This document shows, one piece after another, positions 22,470-29,624 of a stretch of 64,000 bases of DNA. Position 1 is the stretch's first letter. Every line of letters begins with the position of its first letter. The notes below the pieces were generated by a model. The model ran no database searches, had not been told where the DNA came from, and worked only from the letters and a program-made list of their open reading frames with translations. This DNA comes from Catenovulum sediminis. Lineage in GTDB: Bacteria; Pseudomonadota; Gammaproteobacteria; Enterobacterales; Alteromonadaceae. A program made the position numbers and the translations under genes. The DNA lies in assembly GCF_007289895.1 (NCBI RefSeq), contig NZ_CP041660.1, positions 2,914,001 through 2,978,000 on the forward strand, in the 5' to 3' direction.

Positions 22470-24516
22470 TCGCTACAGTATCCGTTTTAAATTATATATG
22501 GCGCAACTTTTTATATTTTTGATATGTATTTTATTGCCCGGTACTGCGTTGTATTTGTATCAGAGCCAAGTAGATAATATTACGATTTCTGAGATTAAAA
22601 ATCTGTTCTTTTATAGTTATATTTTGGCCGGTGTTATTGGCTGTTTAGTTGCGGTTTATATTGTTAAAACTGTACTCAAACCTTTATATAAAGTCACTCG
22701 CGGGGCTGAGAAAATATTAAGTGGTGATTTACAACATAATATTGTTTTAGACTCTGAAGATGAATTTGGTCGGTTAGCATTAACAGTTAACAAGTTGGCC
22801 AATAGTTTAATACAAGCCAACAAGTCTCTTGAAGATAAAGTACATCAAAAAACAGCTGAATTGGAAGCGCTGAATGAAGAGCTTGAAGATCGCATTGTTG
22901 AGCGTACTTTAGAAATGCAAAAAGCGATAGAGCAAGCAAAAATGGCCAGTTCTGCCAAATCTGACTTTTTGGCTATGATGAGCCATGAAATCCGCACACC
23001 AATGAATGGTATTGTGGCTTCATTAGATTTACTTGCACAAACACAAGTTGATTATGAGCAGCTCGATCTTGTTGATACCGCCAAATCCTCAGCGTTAAAC
23101 TTGGTGCTCATTCTGAATGACATTCTAGATATCAGCAAAATTGAATCTGGCAAATTTGAGTTAGAACAAACAGAGTTTTTACTATCAGAAACAATAGATA
23201 GTGTGGTTAAAACATTCGTCCCTTCAACTTTAGAGCAAGGTTTAATCTTTGAAGTGCGCGAGCAAAGCGATATTCCAGATAAAGTAATTGGTGATCCGGT
23301 TCGTATTAGGCAAGTCTTGTTTAATATCGTCGGGAACGCCATCAAGTTTACTGCTCAGCAAAAAGAGAAAAAAGGGAAGATAGTTGTCGATCTAAGCGTT
23401 ATAGAAAAACAAACAGATAGCTTGCTGGTTGAAATTCGTATCAAAGATAATGGTATAGGCATTCATAAGGAAGTGCAGGAGAAGTTATTTCAACCTTTTA
23501 GTCAGGCTGAAAAATCGACTAGCCGAAAATTTGGTGGCACGGGATTGGGATTGGCTATTTGCAAAAAACTGACTGAGATGATGCAGGGTAGTATCACGGT
23601 TCAATCTGAAATTGGTCAAGGAACCGAGTTTTGCATTGCGATACGCTTAGGTAAAAGTCAAGACGATGAGGAGGAACTACCGTCTTTATTTGGTAAAGAG
23701 TTGTATTTTTTAGAATGTAATCATTATCTTGATAAATTAACCAGCCGACTGGTTGATTATACCGAGAGTGAAGGGGGGGAGGCGCAACGACTTAATTGGC
23801 AAGCTGACTCGGATATTTCTGCCCTGAGCGGTACTGTGGTTTTGATGTTAGGTGAAATTGAACCTTATCAGGCGTTGTTGCAGAAATTTGTGTCAGCAGA
23901 ATCACCTTATGCATTAAAAATGGTTGCTGTTGAACGAAATGATTTAGAAAGGTTGCGTAATTTGTATCCGAATATGCCTGCCTTGCCGATTAAACCACTG
24001 ACAAAATTTCAATTTATCAAACATGCGATGGCAGATGAATCTGACTTTGCTGTGTATGAGCAGGCGTCTAGTAGCAAACAAAATAATGTACAGAGCCGCG
24101 AGTCAGCCTCTCCTGAATTAGCGCAAGCTAATGACGTGCAAGATAAACCGGCTGATGTGCTGTTAGTTGAAGATAACCCACTTAATCAGAAGCTTATTCA
24201 AAAGCAATTAAAGAGCTTTGATGTTTATCCAGAACTGGCAAACGATGGTTATGAGGGGTTGCAGGCTTACAAGGACAAAAGGTTTAAATTAATCATCACT
24301 GATTGCCACATGCCCAATTTAAGTGGTTACGATATGGTTCATCTGATTCGCCAATATGAAAAAGAAAATGATTTAGCAAATGTGCCTATTATCGCGTTAA
24401 CTGGTGCCGCCATGGCGGGGGATAAAGAAAAATGTTTAAAAGTGGGCATGAATGACTTTTTATCAAAACCTGTACAAACAGAAGATTTGAAAGCTAAAGT
24501 ACAGCAATATATATAG
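22456..24516 (+). CDS. Membrane hybrid histidine kinase (HAMP-HisKA-HATPase-REC)
   Basis: A 686-residue kinase: two membrane segments (about 12-36 and 52-72) with only a tiny loop outside, a HAMP-like segment, a Glu-rich coiled coil, HisKA with His177 in [12 protein letters not shown], HATPase_c ([25 protein letters not shown]), an altered receiver-like region and a C-terminal intact receiver ([10 protein letters not shown]). ATG 22456 is preferred over TTG 22450 because AAAGGGG sits eight bases upstream. It overlaps the GGDEF/EAL gene and is probably co-translated with it. The minimal outer loop argues against sensing a periplasmic ligand. Confidence 0.9.
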
Positions 24517-24544
24517 CGTGATATATAGCGTGATATATAGCGTG
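24509..24544. repeat. Three exact 12-bp tandem repeats over the kinase stop codon
   Basis: ATATATAGCGTG occurs at 24509, 24521 and 24533. The first copy supplies the last codons and the TAG stop of the hybrid kinase; the other two are non-coding. Confidence 0.93.
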
Positions 24545-24598
24545 TCGCCATCTGGTATACAGGGTATCACAAGGCTTAACACGCTATAGCAGGATTTT

Positions 24599-24635
24599 AG
24601 CAGGATTTAAATTAGAGGTTTTTATCCTGCTTTTT
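24599..24635 (+). terminator. Intrinsic terminator of the c-di-GMP/kinase operon
   Basis: AGCAGGAT (24599-24606; also at 24588) pairs with ATCCTGCT (24624-24631), followed by TTTT. The structure reaches into the 3' end of the convergent gloA gene. Confidence 0.6.
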
Positions 24636-25010
24636 CTGAATTAATTCTAGTGCGTAATTGTCTGGGTCGCGTACAAAGGCAATTTCGGTTGTCCCCCCTT
24701 TAACAGGACCCGGTTCGCGACTGATCGTACCGCCAGCTTGTTTTATTTGTTCACACGTTTGATAAATATCATTCACTTCAATGGCAATATGACCATACGC
24801 ATTGCCCGCATCGTAGCTATCAACCCCCCAATTGTAGGTTAGCTCGATAACTGCACCGTCTTCTTCGCTGCCATAACCGACAAAAGCTAATGTATACTTA
24901 TATTCTTCATTGTCGTGCTGGCGCAACAAAGACATGCCCATGACTTGGGTATAAAACTGTATCGATTTTTCTAAATCAGCAACGCGCAACATAGTATGTA
25001 AAATTCGCAT
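24612..25010 (-). CDS. gloA: Lactoylglutathione lyase (glyoxalase I)
   Basis: Converts the methylglyoxal-glutathione hemithioacetal to S-lactoylglutathione. The 132-residue protein starts [10 protein letters not shown] as in E. coli. The metal ligands are recognisable: His in LHTML, Glu in [11 protein letters not shown], His in YGHIAIEV and Glu in ALELIQ. ATG 25010 with GGAG eight bases upstream is chosen over the GTG three codons earlier. It would be the next gene after nth on this strand were it not for the accessory block between them. Confidence 0.96.
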
Positions 25011-25064
25011 TTTTTCCACTCCGCTTATTATATCTCTGTCTTTTTATACTCACTTAATTTGCTA

Positions 25065-25210
25065 TGATACACGAGCCACACCTTGCTTTGCGAGCAACAC
25101 CTGTGTACCGACCATCTAATATTAACAGTGATGTACCTCAACTTTAATTGCAGGAGGTATAACTTTTAGTCACTTTTTTGATTTTATTGGCGTTGTCACT
25201 AACGGCTAAT
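25065..25210 (-). pseudogene. Heavily decayed remnant of an nth 3' end
   Basis: On the minus strand this segment follows the C-terminal coding region of nth in order: it contains degenerate forms of the ATGATGTAC...GTACAAC, CGAGCAACACCTGTGTACC and ACGGCTAAT blocks present at 27550-27720 and 29000-29180. No reading frame survives. It resembles the 27.5-kb copy (for example GATACACGAGCC against GATACAAGAGCC) more than the intact gene. Confidence 0.75.
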
Positions 25211-25353
25211 AAATATTAGCCGATCATAGTGAAGGATGAGCGCAACCAAGCTTTTTGCGTCCCTTTAATAAACAGTTCGTTAGCTGTTTGAAACACTGAA
25301 ACTGCCATGAAACTTCGAGAAAAACACTACCCGTTAGATTACAACGTTATACT

Positions 25354-25935
25354 TTAGGGTAGAAATATAAAATTTAAAGTAACGGTTAAACATTCTTTGG
25401 TTTCGAATTTTTCGCCACTTTGGGTTTTAAATACCCACTGTTTTAAAGCATCAATAGCAGCTCTGTCAAAGGAATGATCAGGATAATGCTCAATAACGTT
25501 TATATTGAATGGAACACCTTGACTCAAATGTTCCTCGACCAGCGATTTTAGTATATTTGGTATATTTTCATCACTTAAATGAGTTGGTTTATCAGAAACT
25601 TTCAAATCGAACTCCATCGTCACGAAACCTTCAATCCTCTTTTTTTCAGCGAGTTTAGGATACTTTGGTCCAACTCGCTTTACAGCTTGAATTTTTTGAT
25701 TGCCTGTTTCTTGTTTACCGTCTTGCGTGGTACATCGAGATGTAAATTTTATAGCGTTCTCACTATAGTAGGCTAATCGCTCTTCTGTTGTTTTTTAAGG
25801 CTTAATGGCCTCAGCTCGGTTTATTAGTTTGTGATCCACTGGCGCGACTAACTCACTTTTAGCTTCCGTGACGGAAGTAGTACTTTTGCAACCAATTAGA
25901 ACGAACATAAATGATAGTGTGATTATTTTGTACAT
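25354..25935 (-). pseudogene. TonB-family lipoprotein gene interrupted by an in-frame stop
   Basis: From ATG 25935 (AAGGA upstream) the frame reads a lipoprotein signal, MYKIITLSFMFVLIGC, then 30 further residues to a TAA at 25795-25797. The same frame continues without another stop to 25354 and encodes RVGPKYPKLAEKKRIEGFVT and AIDALKQWVFKTQSGE, which are the conserved blocks of the TonB C-terminal domain. So a single nonsense codon separates signal peptide from domain. Either a pseudogene or, less likely, readthrough or a restart at 25623. The intact product would have had 193 residues. Confidence 0.75.
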
Positions 25936-26136
25936 TTAATTCCTTCGACATCTAACACTTAGTATTCATGTACACCTAGTTTGTGTGAATGAATCATTTG
26001 TTTAGCGGGCAAACGGTGCAGTTGTTTGGTTTGATTTATGCTGCATAGACCAGAGGAATTTGCTTTTTTAAGCTCAGCTGACATGGCAGGTTGTTTCCTT
26101 GTTGTTCGCATTTCAGCAATCCATTTAACTTGAGTT

Positions 26137-26203
26137 TGCGCATTGAATTAGCTGTAATTTAAGCTAATTTGGTCATTTATTGCAACTTTATTTTCAATGC
26201 GCA
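26137..26203. repeat. Nested inverted repeat in the accessory region
   Basis: TGCGCATTGAA (26137-26147) is the exact reverse complement of TTCAATGCGCA (26193-26203). Nested at the left, ATTAGCT (26147-26153) pairs with AGCTAAT (26162-26168). It is not part of a gene I recognise. Confidence 0.75.
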
Positions 26204-26214
26204 CAGCAAGCTCT

Positions 26215-26236
26215 AACCCAACGGGTTTTGTTTTTT
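26215..26236 (+). terminator. Small terminator-like hairpin
   Basis: AACCC and GGGTT around a three-base loop, followed by TTGTTTTTT. There is no obvious gene just upstream on this strand, so it may belong to a lost gene or a small RNA. Confidence 0.45.
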
Positions 26237-26505
26237 ATAGTGTATTGGCGACATTAATGACAAAAAAATTGTGTGCGCTGTAAATTCACTAAATTGGTTA
26301 GTCGTTCAAGCTACAAAACTGTAGGCCGCGAGACTATAGACTATACATCAATGTGAATGAATAAGAATAAAACAATGGAAGTGGTCAATCATTTTTCATT
26401 AATAACTTATTAATATACTTATAAAGCAAGTAGTCAACTTACTTTTTATGTCAGCTTATTTTACACCCTTGCTAAATTCAAAGCTACCAAAAATCCTAAT
26501 TCTCT

Positions 26506-26544
26506 GAAAATAAAGGTCTTTATTTTCATGGTGTGGAATTTGCA
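26506..26544 (+). promoter_or_regulatory. Sigma-54-like promoter with adjoining perfect palindrome
   Basis: TGGTGTGGAATTTGCA (26529-26544) has the GG and GC of a -24/-12 promoter at the correct spacing and a perfect TTGCA. The first start would be near 26555, giving a 5' leader of about 55 bases before the ATG at 26611. Directly upstream, GAAAATAAAG (26506-26515) and CTTTATTTTC (26518-26527) form a perfect palindrome. Sigma-54 control of PEP-CTERM genes by PrsK/PrsR is known in other bacteria. Confidence 0.6.
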
Positions 26545-26610
26545 TTCTGCGCTGGGTTTATAACAATACAATCATTTTTTTGATAGAATGTAGTACTAAG
26601 GAAAATATAA

Positions 26611-27306
26611 ATGAATATAAAAATGTTAAAAGCAGCTGTTGCTGGTTTAGCTTTGAGTGTGAGTGGCTTTGCTAATGCGGGATTGATTGTAGGTTACGCT
26701 CCAAACGTAGAAGTTACTACAGGTATGGATGCAACAGGTATAACTTGGGTTGATTCGAATGCAGAGATTTATGAAAGCTCCGGTGGTTCTTTTGGAGATG
26801 CTATCACTCTTAGACCCTCTGTTGCGGTTGCAACATTTTCTGATGCCGTAGCTGCTAATGATTTTTTTCAATTTTCTATTAGTGCACAATTATCTAATTC
26901 ATTTGATTTAGAAACATTTAGTTTTCACGCTTACAATGGTGGCGCTTCAACACCAAGAGGCTGGGTTTTACGTTCGAGTGTCGACAGTTTTGCAAGTGAT
27001 ATTGATAGTTCTTTTATTACTGCTCCATACGATACTATAGCTCCAGATCTTTTTTCTGTTGACTTATCTTCATTTACTTCATTAACTTCGATAGATTTTC
27101 GAGTTTACGCATTTGCTCCAACGGCAGGGTATGCGGTTAATTTCGGCAATTTACAAATACGTGGAACTGTATTTGATGAGTTAGGAAATGAAATACAAAC
27201 ACAAATCCCAGAGCCCTCAACCCTTGCTATCTTCACATTAGGCATTATGGGTTTAGCATCAAGAAGATTTAAGAAGCCGTCAATTGCATTATTCGACAAC
27301 GCTTAA
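26611..27306 (+). CDS. PEP-CTERM sorting-domain exported protein
   Basis: A 231-residue protein with an N-terminal signal peptide (AAVAGLALSVSGFANA), a Ser/Ala/Phe-rich beta-type body and a C-terminal PEP-CTERM signal: IPEPSTLAIFTLGIMGLASR followed by basic RRFKK. Such proteins are processed by an exosortase in the inner membrane and linked to exopolysaccharide and floc/biofilm formation. The body matches no domain I know. AAGGAAAA lies seven or so bases before the ATG. No exosortase is in the window. Confidence 0.88.
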   Translation: MNIKMLKAAVAGLALSVSGFANAGLIVGYAPNVEVTTGMDATGITWVDSNAEIYESSGGSFGDAITLRPSVAVATFSDAVAANDFFQFSISAQLSNSFDLETFSFHAYNGGASTPRGWVLRSSVDSFASDIDSSFITAPYDTIAPDLFSVDLSSFTSLTSIDFRVYAFAPTAGYAVNFGNLQIRGTVFDELGNEIQTQIPEPSTLAIFTLGIMGLASRRFKKPSIALFDNA

Positions 27307-27535
27307 ATAGACCGTTGTTCAGTAAGTCAATTATGAGGGTATTAGAATCAATTAATGACTTTAATAGGGTCCACTGGATTATGCTCTCAGATAAAAAATT
27401 TCTATAAATACATAGTATGGTACAGCTATATAAATCTTTTTGTGCAACTAGGTGTCACCATGTCCGCTTTATCGGACTTTCTTGTCGCAATATAATCAAG
27501 GCTAATGTCTGTTTTCGTATCGTAGTAGGCAGAAG

Positions 27536-27780
27536 CTACTCAGTTTTCTCTTTAAATTCGCACAGGTCTTCGATGATACAAGAGCCGCACCTGGGTTTAC
27601 GAGCGACACAGGTGTATCGACCATGTAATATCAGCCAATGATGTACATCTACTTTAAATTCTGCCGGTACAACTTTCAGTAGTTTTTGTTCGACTTCATT
27701 AACGTTTTTGCCAACGGCTAATTTTTTTCTGTTACTGACTCTGTATATGTGCGTGCCTACCGCAATGGTCGGCCAGCCAA
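27536..27780 (-). pseudogene. Truncated duplicate of the nth 3' end
   Basis: Encodes, within a longer open frame, the last 81 residues of endonuclease III (FGWPTIAVGTHIYRVSNRKK through to RCGSCIIEDLCEFKEKTE) but lacks the N-terminal two-thirds. The catalytic Asp of VDTH is Gly here. All four Fe-S cysteines are retained. About 140 bp (27641-27780) are nearly identical to the intact gene at 29096-29236, while the terminal 100 bp differ at roughly a quarter of positions. The part upstream of FGWPT (to 27841) is unrelated. Confidence 0.87.
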
Positions 27781-27983
27781 AGGATAATTTAAGTAGATCG
27801 CGATTTACTTTAAACATTTTAGCTTTACGCTTTGTGCGCAATTACGGATCGTCCTCTCCCAGTAGGCCAGAGAGCACTTTCATCTTATTGCTGACGCTTG
27901 ACTTGTAGTCATTAGGTTCTCTTAAAAATAGCTTTTCAATATTTCAGTAATGTAAGTTAAACGCATCTTGTTGTCAGGTTTGC

Positions 27984-28025
27984 TTGACTTATTAATGATT
28001 AATATGTAATGTTAGCCTTACATTA
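27984..28025 (+). promoter_or_regulatory. Promoter and possible operator of the membrane-protein/XRE pair
   Basis: TTGACT (27984-27989) and TAATGT (28007-28012) are separated by 17 bp. TAATGT and ACATTA form an inverted repeat over and just after the -10 element, a plausible site for the XRE regulator encoded downstream. Operator role is inferred. Confidence 0.5.
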
Positions 28026-28090
28026 TGTCGAGGTATGATGACACAATCAAAACTAATTAAGAGAACAAGGTAACTTCAGGAGTGCTAAAT

Positions 28091-28498
28091 ATGAGTAATG
28101 TATTAGATAAAAAGGAAAAGAAGTTTCTAGTCAAATTTATGTTGCATATAGCGATGTTTTTAGCGGTTTTAGCGATATCAGTAGTAATGAATGAGACCAA
28201 TGATTTGTCTATATACAGCACTGGATTCCTCGCAATGTCCCCTGTAATTCCTGTGATATTTTTATTGCGGCTGGTGGTAAATCATTATAGGTCATTGGAT
28301 GAATACATCCAGAGAGTAATGGGTGAAAGTTTGCTTTGGGCTGTAGGTGTTGTTGGTTGTGCGGCAATGGCTTATGGCTTGCTCTCAGAAATGGTTGAGG
28401 TGCCGACTATTAGCCCAGCCTTTATGTTGCCAGCAATAGCAGTCATCTTTGGTGTAGCACAGTCTATTAAACTATCGAGCGATACCCATGAAGAATAG
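28091..28498 (+). CDS. Small four-helix membrane protein of unknown function
   Basis: A 135-residue protein with about four hydrophobic segments (FMLHIAMFLAVLAISVVM; a second near 45-65; LWAVGVVGCAAMAYGLL; FMLPAIAVIFGVAQSI) and charged termini. I cannot name a family with confidence. It is coupled to the next gene: the XRE regulator ATG lies 11 bp inside its 3' end. ATG 28091 has AGGAG eight bases upstream and is preferred over GTG 28082. Small polytopic proteins paired with a compact XRE regulator are recurrent in bacteria. Confidence 0.75.
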   Translation: MSNVLDKKEKKFLVKFMLHIAMFLAVLAISVVMNETNDLSIYSTGFLAMSPVIPVIFLLRLVVNHYRSLDEYIQRVMGESLLWAVGVVGCAAMAYGLLSEMVEVPTISPAFMLPAIAVIFGVAQSIKLSSDTHEE

Positions 28499-28691
28499 GT
28501 TACGGGTACTTCGTGCAGAAAATAGATGGTCTCAAGCAGATCTTGCTGAAAAGTTAGGAGTGTCACGTCAAGCCGTGAACGCTATAGAAACAGGAAAACA
28601 TGATCCTTCTTTAACTCTTGCTTTTGCTCTTGCAGAGACCTTTGGACAAAGCATTGAAGAAATATTTTGTCCCAAAGAACAAAATAACTAA
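28488..28691 (+). CDS. Compact XRE-family transcriptional regulator
   Basis: A 67-residue protein that is nearly all helix-turn-helix: NRLRVLRAENRWSQADLAEK then LGVSRQAVNAIETGKHDPSL, and a short tail TFGQSIEEIFCPKE. This is the minimal HTH_3 type related to YozG-like regulators. It overlaps the membrane-protein gene and probably represses the shared promoter. The FCPK tail holds a single Cys. Confidence 0.88.
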   Translation: MKNRLRVLRAENRWSQADLAEKLGVSRQAVNAIETGKHDPSLTLAFALAETFGQSIEEIFCPKEQNN

Positions 28692-28991
28692 ACAATATGT
28701 CTTTTCTTTGTGTTGTGGTCTAATGCCAATTGCTAGGCCACAGCAACTAAACATGTTTTAGAGCCTATCCAACATAATTATATGAACACTCTCATAGCCT
28801 CCGGAGAGGGTCTTGATTTTATAGCGAAGCTACGAGTTTTAGATAAACTAGTAGAACCAAAGTCCAGTAATTTGAATGTGGTTCAATAATATACGATGTA
28901 AATCAATAATTTGCATCACTTAAAAAGTTATTCGATTTTATTTCGTCCGCTTTTTTGCGGTAGTATCAAATCGCTCGTTACAGGCAACTAG

Positions 28992-29624
28992 CTACTCAGT
29001 TTTATCCTTAAACTCACACAAATCTTCAATCAAGCAAGCACCGCAGCGGGGCTTGCGTGCTACACAGATATACCTGCCATGCAGGATCAGCCAGTGATGT
29101 ACATCTACTTTAAATTCTGTCGGTACAACTTTCAGTAGTTTTTGTTCGACTTCATTAACGTTTTTGCCAACGGCTAATTTTGTTCTGTTACTGACTCTGT
29201 ATATGTGCGTGTCTACCGCAATGGTCGGCCAGCCAAATGCCGTGTTTAAGACAACATTGGCGGTTTTTCTGCCAACTCCCGGCAATGCTTCTAACGCTTC
29301 TCGGCTTTCAGGTACTTCGCCGTTATAATTATCCATTAAAATTTTGCAGGTTTTTATGACATTTTCTGCTTTACTGTTATACAAACCAATGGTTTTGATA
29401 TAACTTTTAAGCCCCTCTAATCCGAGGTTGTAGATTTTCTCGGCGGTATTGGCGATAGGGTAAAGCTTACGTGTTGCCTTATTGACACCCACATCCGTTG
29501 CCTGAGCGGATAAAATAACCGCTATTAACAACTCAAAGGGGGTTGAATATTCCAATTCTGTTGTCGGATTTGGGTTGTTTGCGCGTAGTCTCGTTAAAAT
29601 TTCTACGCGTTTTTGTTGATTCAT
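28992..29624 (-). CDS. nth: Endonuclease III (DNA glycosylase / AP lyase)
   Basis: Removes oxidised pyrimidines and cleaves AP sites in base-excision repair. The 210-residue protein has the family length. The helix-hairpin-helix is ALPGVGRKTANVVL with the catalytic Lys, the catalytic Asp lies in AVDTHIYRV, and the [4Fe-4S] ligands follow C-x6-C-x2-C-x5-C near the C terminus. It begins one base after the rsxE stop and ends the rsx operon, as in E. coli. Its 3' end recurs twice downstream as fragments. Confidence 0.97.
   Translation of the reverse strand: MNQQKRVEILTRLRANNPNPTTELEYSTPFELLIAVILSAQATDVGVNKATRKLYPIANTAEKIYNLGLEGLKSYIKTIGLYNSKAENVIKTCKILMDNYNGEVPESREALEALPGVGRKTANVVLNTAFGWPTIAVDTHIYRVSNRTKLAVGKNVNEVEQKLLKVVPTEFKVDVHHWLILHGRYICVARKPRCGACLIEDLCEFKDKTE

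Follow-up and report, generated by a model that had tools for sequence, protein, structure and literature searches.

Gene cassettes stacked behind the endonuclease III gene nth of Catenovulum sediminis and a probable attachment site of large serine recombinases

The described systems closest to the locus reported here, a series of gene cassettes and displaced 3' ends behind the endonuclease III gene nth of Catenovulum sediminis, are elements integrated by large serine recombinases (LSRs), integron cassette arrays and the additive genomic islands of Alteromonas. The locus lies in a stretch of 64,000 nucleotides (NCBI RefSeq assembly GCF_007289895.1, contig NZ_CP041660.1, positions 2,914,001 to 2,978,000), the whole of which is referred to as the window. 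LSR integrative elements, for example those with the LSRs of Burkholderia phages JC1 and Bcep176, share with the elements described below a recombinase with Resolvase and zinc-ribbon domains, an LSR gene at the element end by the junction, inverted arms around a dinucleotide and a target in a conserved gene; they differ in that the target is here nth, with 81 codons replaced, and that the array units, many in tandem, have no LSR seen in them. Integron arrays likewise consist of small tandem units of varied cargo, with the newest beside a fixed anchor and a shared order in relatives, whereas here intI is not beside the array, five of six junctions are without attC-like folding, a unit may hold a single gene or several, in many cases including a regulator, and the site is within a protein gene. 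In additive islands of Alteromonas, a member of the same order of bacteria, cassettes are likewise added repeatedly at one conserved gene, and for one such island a displaced copy of the 3' end of the tRNA has been described; their target, in contrast, is a tRNA gene, and the main text of that article does not contain the word 'endonuclease' (PMC4119200). The main text of a further article (PMC10083194) contains neither 'nth' nor 'endonuclease', and the open-licence literature searched holds no recognisable description of nth as an integration site or of nth-anchored arrays. The nth copies in the window are the local edge of a larger, order-wide phenomenon; judged from sequence comparison, they are likely to be attachment-site duplications, with codons 130–133 of nth as the bacterial attachment site (attB) of an LSR family.

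The nth locus of the window

The locus comprises, in order, intact nth, cassette 1, copy 2, cassette 2, copy 3 and gloA. Its features are as follows (window positions).

28992..29624, minus strand: intact nth (endonuclease III), the target gene, with the 3' 81 codons, by sequence, as the exchanged part
29227..29237, minus strand: putative attachment-site core in nth, TTTGGC-TG-GCC, codons 130–133
29230–29231, minus strand: TG in the nth core, the presumed exchange dinucleotide
27799..28991, no strand: cassette 1 (younger), 1193 bp, two genes
28082..28498, plus strand: cassette 1 cargo, hydrophobic (membrane-type) protein, 138 aa, no Pfam match
28488..28691, plus strand: cassette 1 cargo, XRE/HTH_3 regulator, 67 aa (HTH_3, E 1e-16)
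27782..27798, minus strand: 17-bp left arm ATCTACTTAAATTATCC, the putative element end (P arm), one mismatch to the pattern
27536..27781, minus strand: copy 2, displaced nth codons 130–210 and stop, attR-type junction
25213..27535, no strand: cassette 2 (older), PEP-CTERM gene and TonB_C remnant
26611..27306, plus strand: cassette 2 cargo, PEP-CTERM protein, 231 aa (PF07589, E 4e-6)
25354..25623, minus strand: cassette 2 cargo, remnant with weak TonB_C similarity (E 6.9e-4, below the cut-off)
about 25057..25212, minus strand: copy 3, decayed displaced nth 3' end, left end and arm unrecognisable
24612..25019, minus strand: gloA, the gene directly after nth at empty sites

The product of intact nth matches Pfam HhH-GPD and carries the FeS motif. 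An initial annotation of the window had reported three nth 3' ends in the same orientation, one of them decayed, and both a repeat search and tblastn recovered all three. Copy 2 (27534–27781) aligns with nth along 248 bp at 88% identity and is found by tblastn at 87% identity over nth codons 125–210 (E 2.8e-49); the Asp codon of its AVDTH motif is changed to Gly. Its left boundary is codon 130, directly after the 17-bp arm, a feature absent from the initial annotation. Copy 3 was detected through repeat families D2 and D3 and by tblastn (E 2e-5). The copies are increasingly decayed with distance from nth, as expected if age falls toward nth, and only attR-type junctions are retained in the window units. 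Of the cargo named initially, the PEP-CTERM and XRE/HTH genes were recovered, the TonB-family gene is reduced to the sub-threshold remnant listed above and the membrane-protein reading frame rests without a family assignment.

Base-by-base comparison of nth and copy 2 after codon 130 gives 3 differences in 143 positions and then 27 in 103, which agrees with the earlier description of some 140 nearly identical bp followed by about 100 divergent ones and, as had been suggested there, indicates exchange between the copies, with an apparent switch point between +117 and +143. The tail of copy 2 is slightly closer to seven other members of the genus (mean 0.77) than is that of intact nth (0.73, the mean of seven values), which suggests that copy 2 retains the older resident 3' end.

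In agreement with the initial annotation, which saw no integrase, PF00589 is absent from the window among the matches listed (down to about E 1e-5) and PF00239 has no match at E ≤ 0.001 in the genome. The cassettes of this genome are non-autonomous and an LSR is absent from it. Searched with PADLOC for defence genes, the window cassettes gave HTH-type matches only. A fourth partial nth copy lies on the same contig, far from nth (G000:C1:1473576-1473767; L023:7577-7768), in which the left part has given way to sequence whose inverted repeat resembles an insertion-sequence end. Beyond gloA, a 12-bp unit (TATAGCGTGATA; family D5) is repeated at the end of a histidine kinase gene (window 24500–24544).

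Empty sites, arm and recombinase in relatives

Relatives are designated below by genome (G) and locus (L) handles. The downstream gene gloA could be placed on the same strand in 50 intact-nth loci (some genomes are counted twice), and in 29 of these the nth–gloA gap is below 300 bp, with displaced copies in none of the 29. Such empty sites had been predicted, and they include four of the eight genomes of the window's genus (G001, G002, G003 and G006); of the others, G005 and G007 have one displaced copy each, that of G007 ending 22 bp before gloA, and G004 has 1.6 kb between nth and gloA with no recognised copy. Because Vibrio, Photobacterium and Aliivibrio are among the 29 empty loci, nth–gloA looks like the ancestral arrangement. 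Displaced copies, empty sites and differing cargo together support the earlier proposal that successive integrations each restored the 3' end of nth; since the cargo varies between genomes, fixed fragments shared with invariant cargo are excluded.

At least four nth matches, which is only a proxy for an array, were found in 53 of 295 family genomes, the window genome included, and five genomes reach at least 10; the usual number is two, nth and probably a MutY-type relative. Among the best 80 named loci, 20 have extra nth 3' pieces on the same strand in the sequence available downstream, at most 10 kb (21 without the strand filter), several of them weak short matches, and none was found in the loci of Vibrionaceae, Proteus, Xenorhabdus or Pasteurellaceae. 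The genera of these loci include Aliiglaciecola, Psychrosphaera, Neiella, Pseudoalteromonas, Colwellia, Thalassotalea and Paraglaciecola, besides Catenovulum maritimum, and we take the genera of all 20 loci to belong to Alteromonadales. The densest arrays examined have six or seven displaced copies within 20 kb. In G176, displaced nth ends, most with arms, also lie off the contig of nth (L151, L152 and L153; contigs C7 and C11), and represent either a second array or an assembly break.

Most displaced copies are preceded by a conserved arm, where intact nth has coding sequence. In 98 distinct copies, positions -17 to -1 read (A/G)TCTAC(T/C)TTNATTATC(T/C), with little conservation further left; these copies were chosen with a model that contains the arm, and they describe its form, not its frequency. 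The frequency comes from independent loci whose copies were found by protein similarity only, some loci overlapping. Of the 58 displaced copies there whose left end is close to codon 130, 49 have an arm before them (at least 11 of 16 consensus positions), whereas random places reach this score in 2.9% of cases; for the model-building loci the count is 37 of 39. A 25-base pattern of arm and core, with at most two mismatches, occurs at 59 places in 22 of 25 genomes, of which 54 are at nth copies seen, two (in G217) are unchecked and three lie elsewhere; the reversed pattern occurs three times. The predicted element end is a 20-bp arm, ATCTACYTTMATTATCTTTT, followed by GGC-TG.

The inverted arm, CTAAAAGATAATGAAGGTAGATAC, is found in another nth allele, where it is translated in frame, as LKDNEGRY(F), immediately behind FGW and leads into a different 3' end. 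This allele is present, in some cases with a few base changes, in G088, G029, G102, G009, G118 and G014. Of nine long nth genes, six have FGW and the arm in frame, two (L224 and L226) have FGQ and the arm, and L220 is unmatched by the patterns. In L224 and L226 (G032 and G103) the FGQ replacement means that the core TG is lost, and the site is perhaps no longer usable. The consensus arm of the displaced copies and the inverted arm in nth of G088 and G118 agree at 21 of 23 positions, core included, around GGC-TG-GC. A motif like it is shifted 4 bp toward TG on the native (attB) side, with 13 of 23 positions matching at that shift and at most 37% at 16 other shifts; such a shift between attP and attB is known for serine integrases.

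An LSR gene starts within about 100 bp of the displaced nth junction in three relatives, G118, G169 and G093. In G118, nth reads TTTGGC-TG-GCTAAAAGATAATGAAGGTAGATAC, the last part being the inverted arm, and the far junction reads arm-TTTTGGC-TG-GCC, followed by codons 130–210 of a native-type nth 3' end and then gloA; the TG of codon 132 is thus bracketed by the two arms. The LSR, a frame of 578 codons, opens at the arm of this far junction, about 11 kb after nth. Both junctions (attL and attR) of this element are thus seen, with inverted arms around a central dinucleotide. The LSRs of G169 and G093, which are 66 and 64% identical to the query LSR, lie beside an arm and a displaced nth 3' end, and only the LSR-side junction was reached in these two elements. 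Resolvase and zinc-ribbon domains were assigned to the LSRs of G118 and G056 by Pfam and to those of G169 and G093 by similarity. Any match to the query LSR is found in 29 of the 295 family genomes, and the window genome has none; the four closest include three beside a displaced nth junction, the exception being G056. The integrase that the initial annotation expected in other strains was thus found, as an LSR, in a few of them. That annotation is partly supported: the agent is most likely an LSR absent from the window genome, and the same site carries long arrays across the order. The stricter proposition that a serine recombinase is present in every array genome was set aside, PF00239 being without a match in 4 of 16 genomes examined.

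The G118 element (L251:7195-18588) also encodes a Mob_Pre relaxase, a VapE-like protein, a PIN-TPR domain and a protein with weak SIR2 similarity, and gives one weak PADLOC match only; relaxase and VapE-like protein make it probably an integrative mobilisable element. A type I restriction-modification set lies near the LSR of G093. In G056, nth is split by an island whose genes include some of metal-efflux type, as judged by eye from the open reading frames (ORFs). Behind the break the island supplies a complete but divergent Nth gene (38% identical); two further displaced pieces follow its far junction, before gloA. A divergent Nth is also found at the rsxE–nth locus of six other genomes (L253, L254, L255, L256, L263 and L264 in G162, G008, G031, G108, G161 and G218). 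These proteins share 37–40% identity with the window Nth and 82–92% with the additional Nth on the G056 island; a native nth of full length was not found in any of the six genomes, where it seems to have been replaced outright. Scans of viral contigs for a source of the nth 3' end or the LSR (81-residue peptide, alignment, two DNA patterns and LSR) were empty. Matches to nth exist in named phages and plasmids, and the best named relatives of the LSR are 34–36% identical.

Cassette content and exchange of the nth 3' end

Neighbouring sites are separated by 88 intervals in 24 loci, with a median of 2.6 kb and a range of 0.2–8.9 kb; longer gaps were excluded, the identity of locus L052 with L165 leads to a double count of two intervals, and a few of the shortest intervals lie within decayed copies. 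The intervals hold 197 ORFs of at least 90 codons. Pfam searches with 150 of 164 non-redundant proteins assigned metabolic enzymes, LysR and AraC regulators, TonB receptors, PF00144 hydrolases, sigma factors with an anti-sigma factor and one IS66 element; these families are the best 25 of 36, 45, 40, 59 and 43 per batch, and rare families may be unseen. Among the matches listed, no recombinase of PF00589 or PF00239 was found in the arrays of the genomes searched; in the Pfam batches a lone weak PF00589 protein may have escaped notice.

The clearest pair for growth of an array is L040 (G104) and L038 (G072). The three cassettes behind nth in G104 recur in the same order in G072, where three further cassettes lie between this trio and nth. 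Before codon 130 the two nth genes differ at 2 of 387 positions (99.5% identity), and after it at 40 of 243, the first at +11 (82.8% identity after the site), a pattern that indicates exchange of the nth 3' end. A smaller step is seen in L047/L059 (5' part 0.990, 3' part 0.957), and other array pairs have little or no gap between the parts, for example L048/L128 (0.876 versus 0.858) and L045/L172 (0.863 versus 0.862); the close pairs available were few. In array-free pairs above 0.9 identity in the 5' part, the 3' part is at least as similar in 11 of 11, all of them Proteus or Xenorhabdus; at lower identity, L058/L064 and L180/L181 are array-free pairs with a less similar 3' part.

Routes of array growth

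We infer that the LSR family made the cassette arrays and that LSR-free cassettes were stacked with regeneration of the target site. Integration would occur at attB, nth codons 130–133 (TTTGGC-TG-GCC), with the element arm and its inverted copy flanking TG. Exchange at TG would join the 5' part of nth to a 3' end borne by the element and push the old end, from codon 132 onward, behind the arm and beside the cargo. Two such events would be left in the window: nth is followed by cassette 1 and copy 2 by cassette 2, and the decayed copy 3 comes last, before gloA.

Several observations weigh against this proposal. The LSR is rare, being present at 55% identity or more in 4 of 295 family genomes, the query genome included, and that of G056 (53–55% identical) lies inside a 34-kb island and not at its end. 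A recognisable arm is missing in 9 of the 58 copies of the independent loci. Mosaic copies switch away from TG (at +117 to +143 in the window and, by eye, near +45 in L038 copy 8054), which points to homologous exchange as well. No full double-arm site was found, by the pattern used, in the loci examined. Finally, CC follows TGG in all 48 distinct nth genes of array loci, which were selected by similarity to the window nth; this is the native right side and not the element arm, so a plain attP × attB event does not explain the present state.

The native right side implies that attB is regenerated, and a carrier model would account for this by normal LSR chemistry. An LSR element and its trailing cassettes would enter attB as one composite, and the LSR element would then excise alone between its own two junctions. 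What stays would be a regenerated attB and, as the new end of nth, the 3' end that had been located behind the element, with a cassette following. The order in G056, with further displaced pieces after the island, is the one expected from this model. Mosaic copies indicate that some homologous exchange also occurs, and later exchange among the 243-bp copies would shuffle them. More tentatively, we propose an integron-like capture built on serine-recombinase chemistry, in which carriers may bring trains of integrase-free cassettes, deposit them behind nth, regenerate the entry site and each time swap the half of endonuclease III with the catalytic Asp and the iron–sulfur cluster, so that the enzyme would have become chimeric repeatedly across the order.

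The arm conservation in LSR-free cassettes and the structure of the array units would fit an LSR acting in trans on cassette circles, each with a site composed of arm, TG and native side, that recombine with attB and regenerate it. This is a non-textbook reaction, serine integrases not being known to pair such a hybrid site with attB, and we regard it as rather unlikely. Arrays might instead grow by homologous recombination only, if circles or transformed DNA with an nth 3' end recombine with the resident end, a process sufficient in itself to restore nth and to leave a cassette with a displaced copy. The mosaic copies with switches at varied places, the regenerated native site and the fact that no recombinase was seen in the arrays are in its favor; it leaves unexplained why the same arm is joined to unrelated cargo at one base in most copies, why the L038/L040 break lies within 11 bases of the start of homology and why an LSR lies beside the junction, and it is less probable still.

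Other recombinases are far less probable than either. IntI acting in trans would be in keeping with its presence in 230 of 295 genomes, including 51 of the 53 with at least four nth matches versus 179 of the 242 others (odds ratio 9.0, P 1.7e-4, from hand counts uncorrected for kinship), but attC-like folding (z below -2) is seen in only one of six junctions (z-scores against shuffled sequences 0.11, 0.18, -0.91, -1.10, -3.02 and -0.22; one of the six sequences had a one-letter error), G023 has a fresh displaced copy with an arm and no IntI match at E 1e-30, and the arm pattern is unmatched in six loci around intI. In 18 genomes the intI matches listed are on another contig than nth or at least 200 kb away. 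A decayed intI with cassettes that look attC-bounded by eye lies between nth and gloA in G074 (L186:795-7028), where no displaced nth end was found. Arm and core together, at 28 bp, resemble a tyrosine-recombinase site, a length that would suit nth as the attB of a tyrosine integrase island or of Xer-dependent integration. Against this very improbable route, no PF00589 match was listed (down to about E 1e-5) between nth and the last displaced copy in 19 genomes (one without an array); G007 has a match 15 kb beyond nth, past gloA, and G158 one 60 kb away. Matches to the XerD model exceed its cut-off in 6 of the 18 genomes that have displaced copies, and 11 array genomes are without one (G037, G041, G046, G048, G072, G092, G104, G110, G132, G158 and G176; the match in G048, 1.8e-63, is below the cut-off); PF02899 passes its threshold in 6 of 21 genomes, made up of these 11 and 10 others. 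The absence of dif/Xer has already been reported for Colwellia psychrerythraea (PMC2731167). Inverted arms with a 2-bp center and an adjacent LSR, moreover, fit a serine enzyme. IntI, XerCD and other tyrosine integrases are unsupported as the agent.

If LSR-based stacking at nth is correct, it would constitute a second route, beside integrons, for stacking small cassettes at one fixed place, and naming the likely enzyme makes it directly testable. A core DNA-repair gene would have had its C-terminal 39% replaced by mobile DNA, which matters for nth phylogeny, and the sequence of units in the arrays may be a record of how genes were gained over time in a marine bacterial order.

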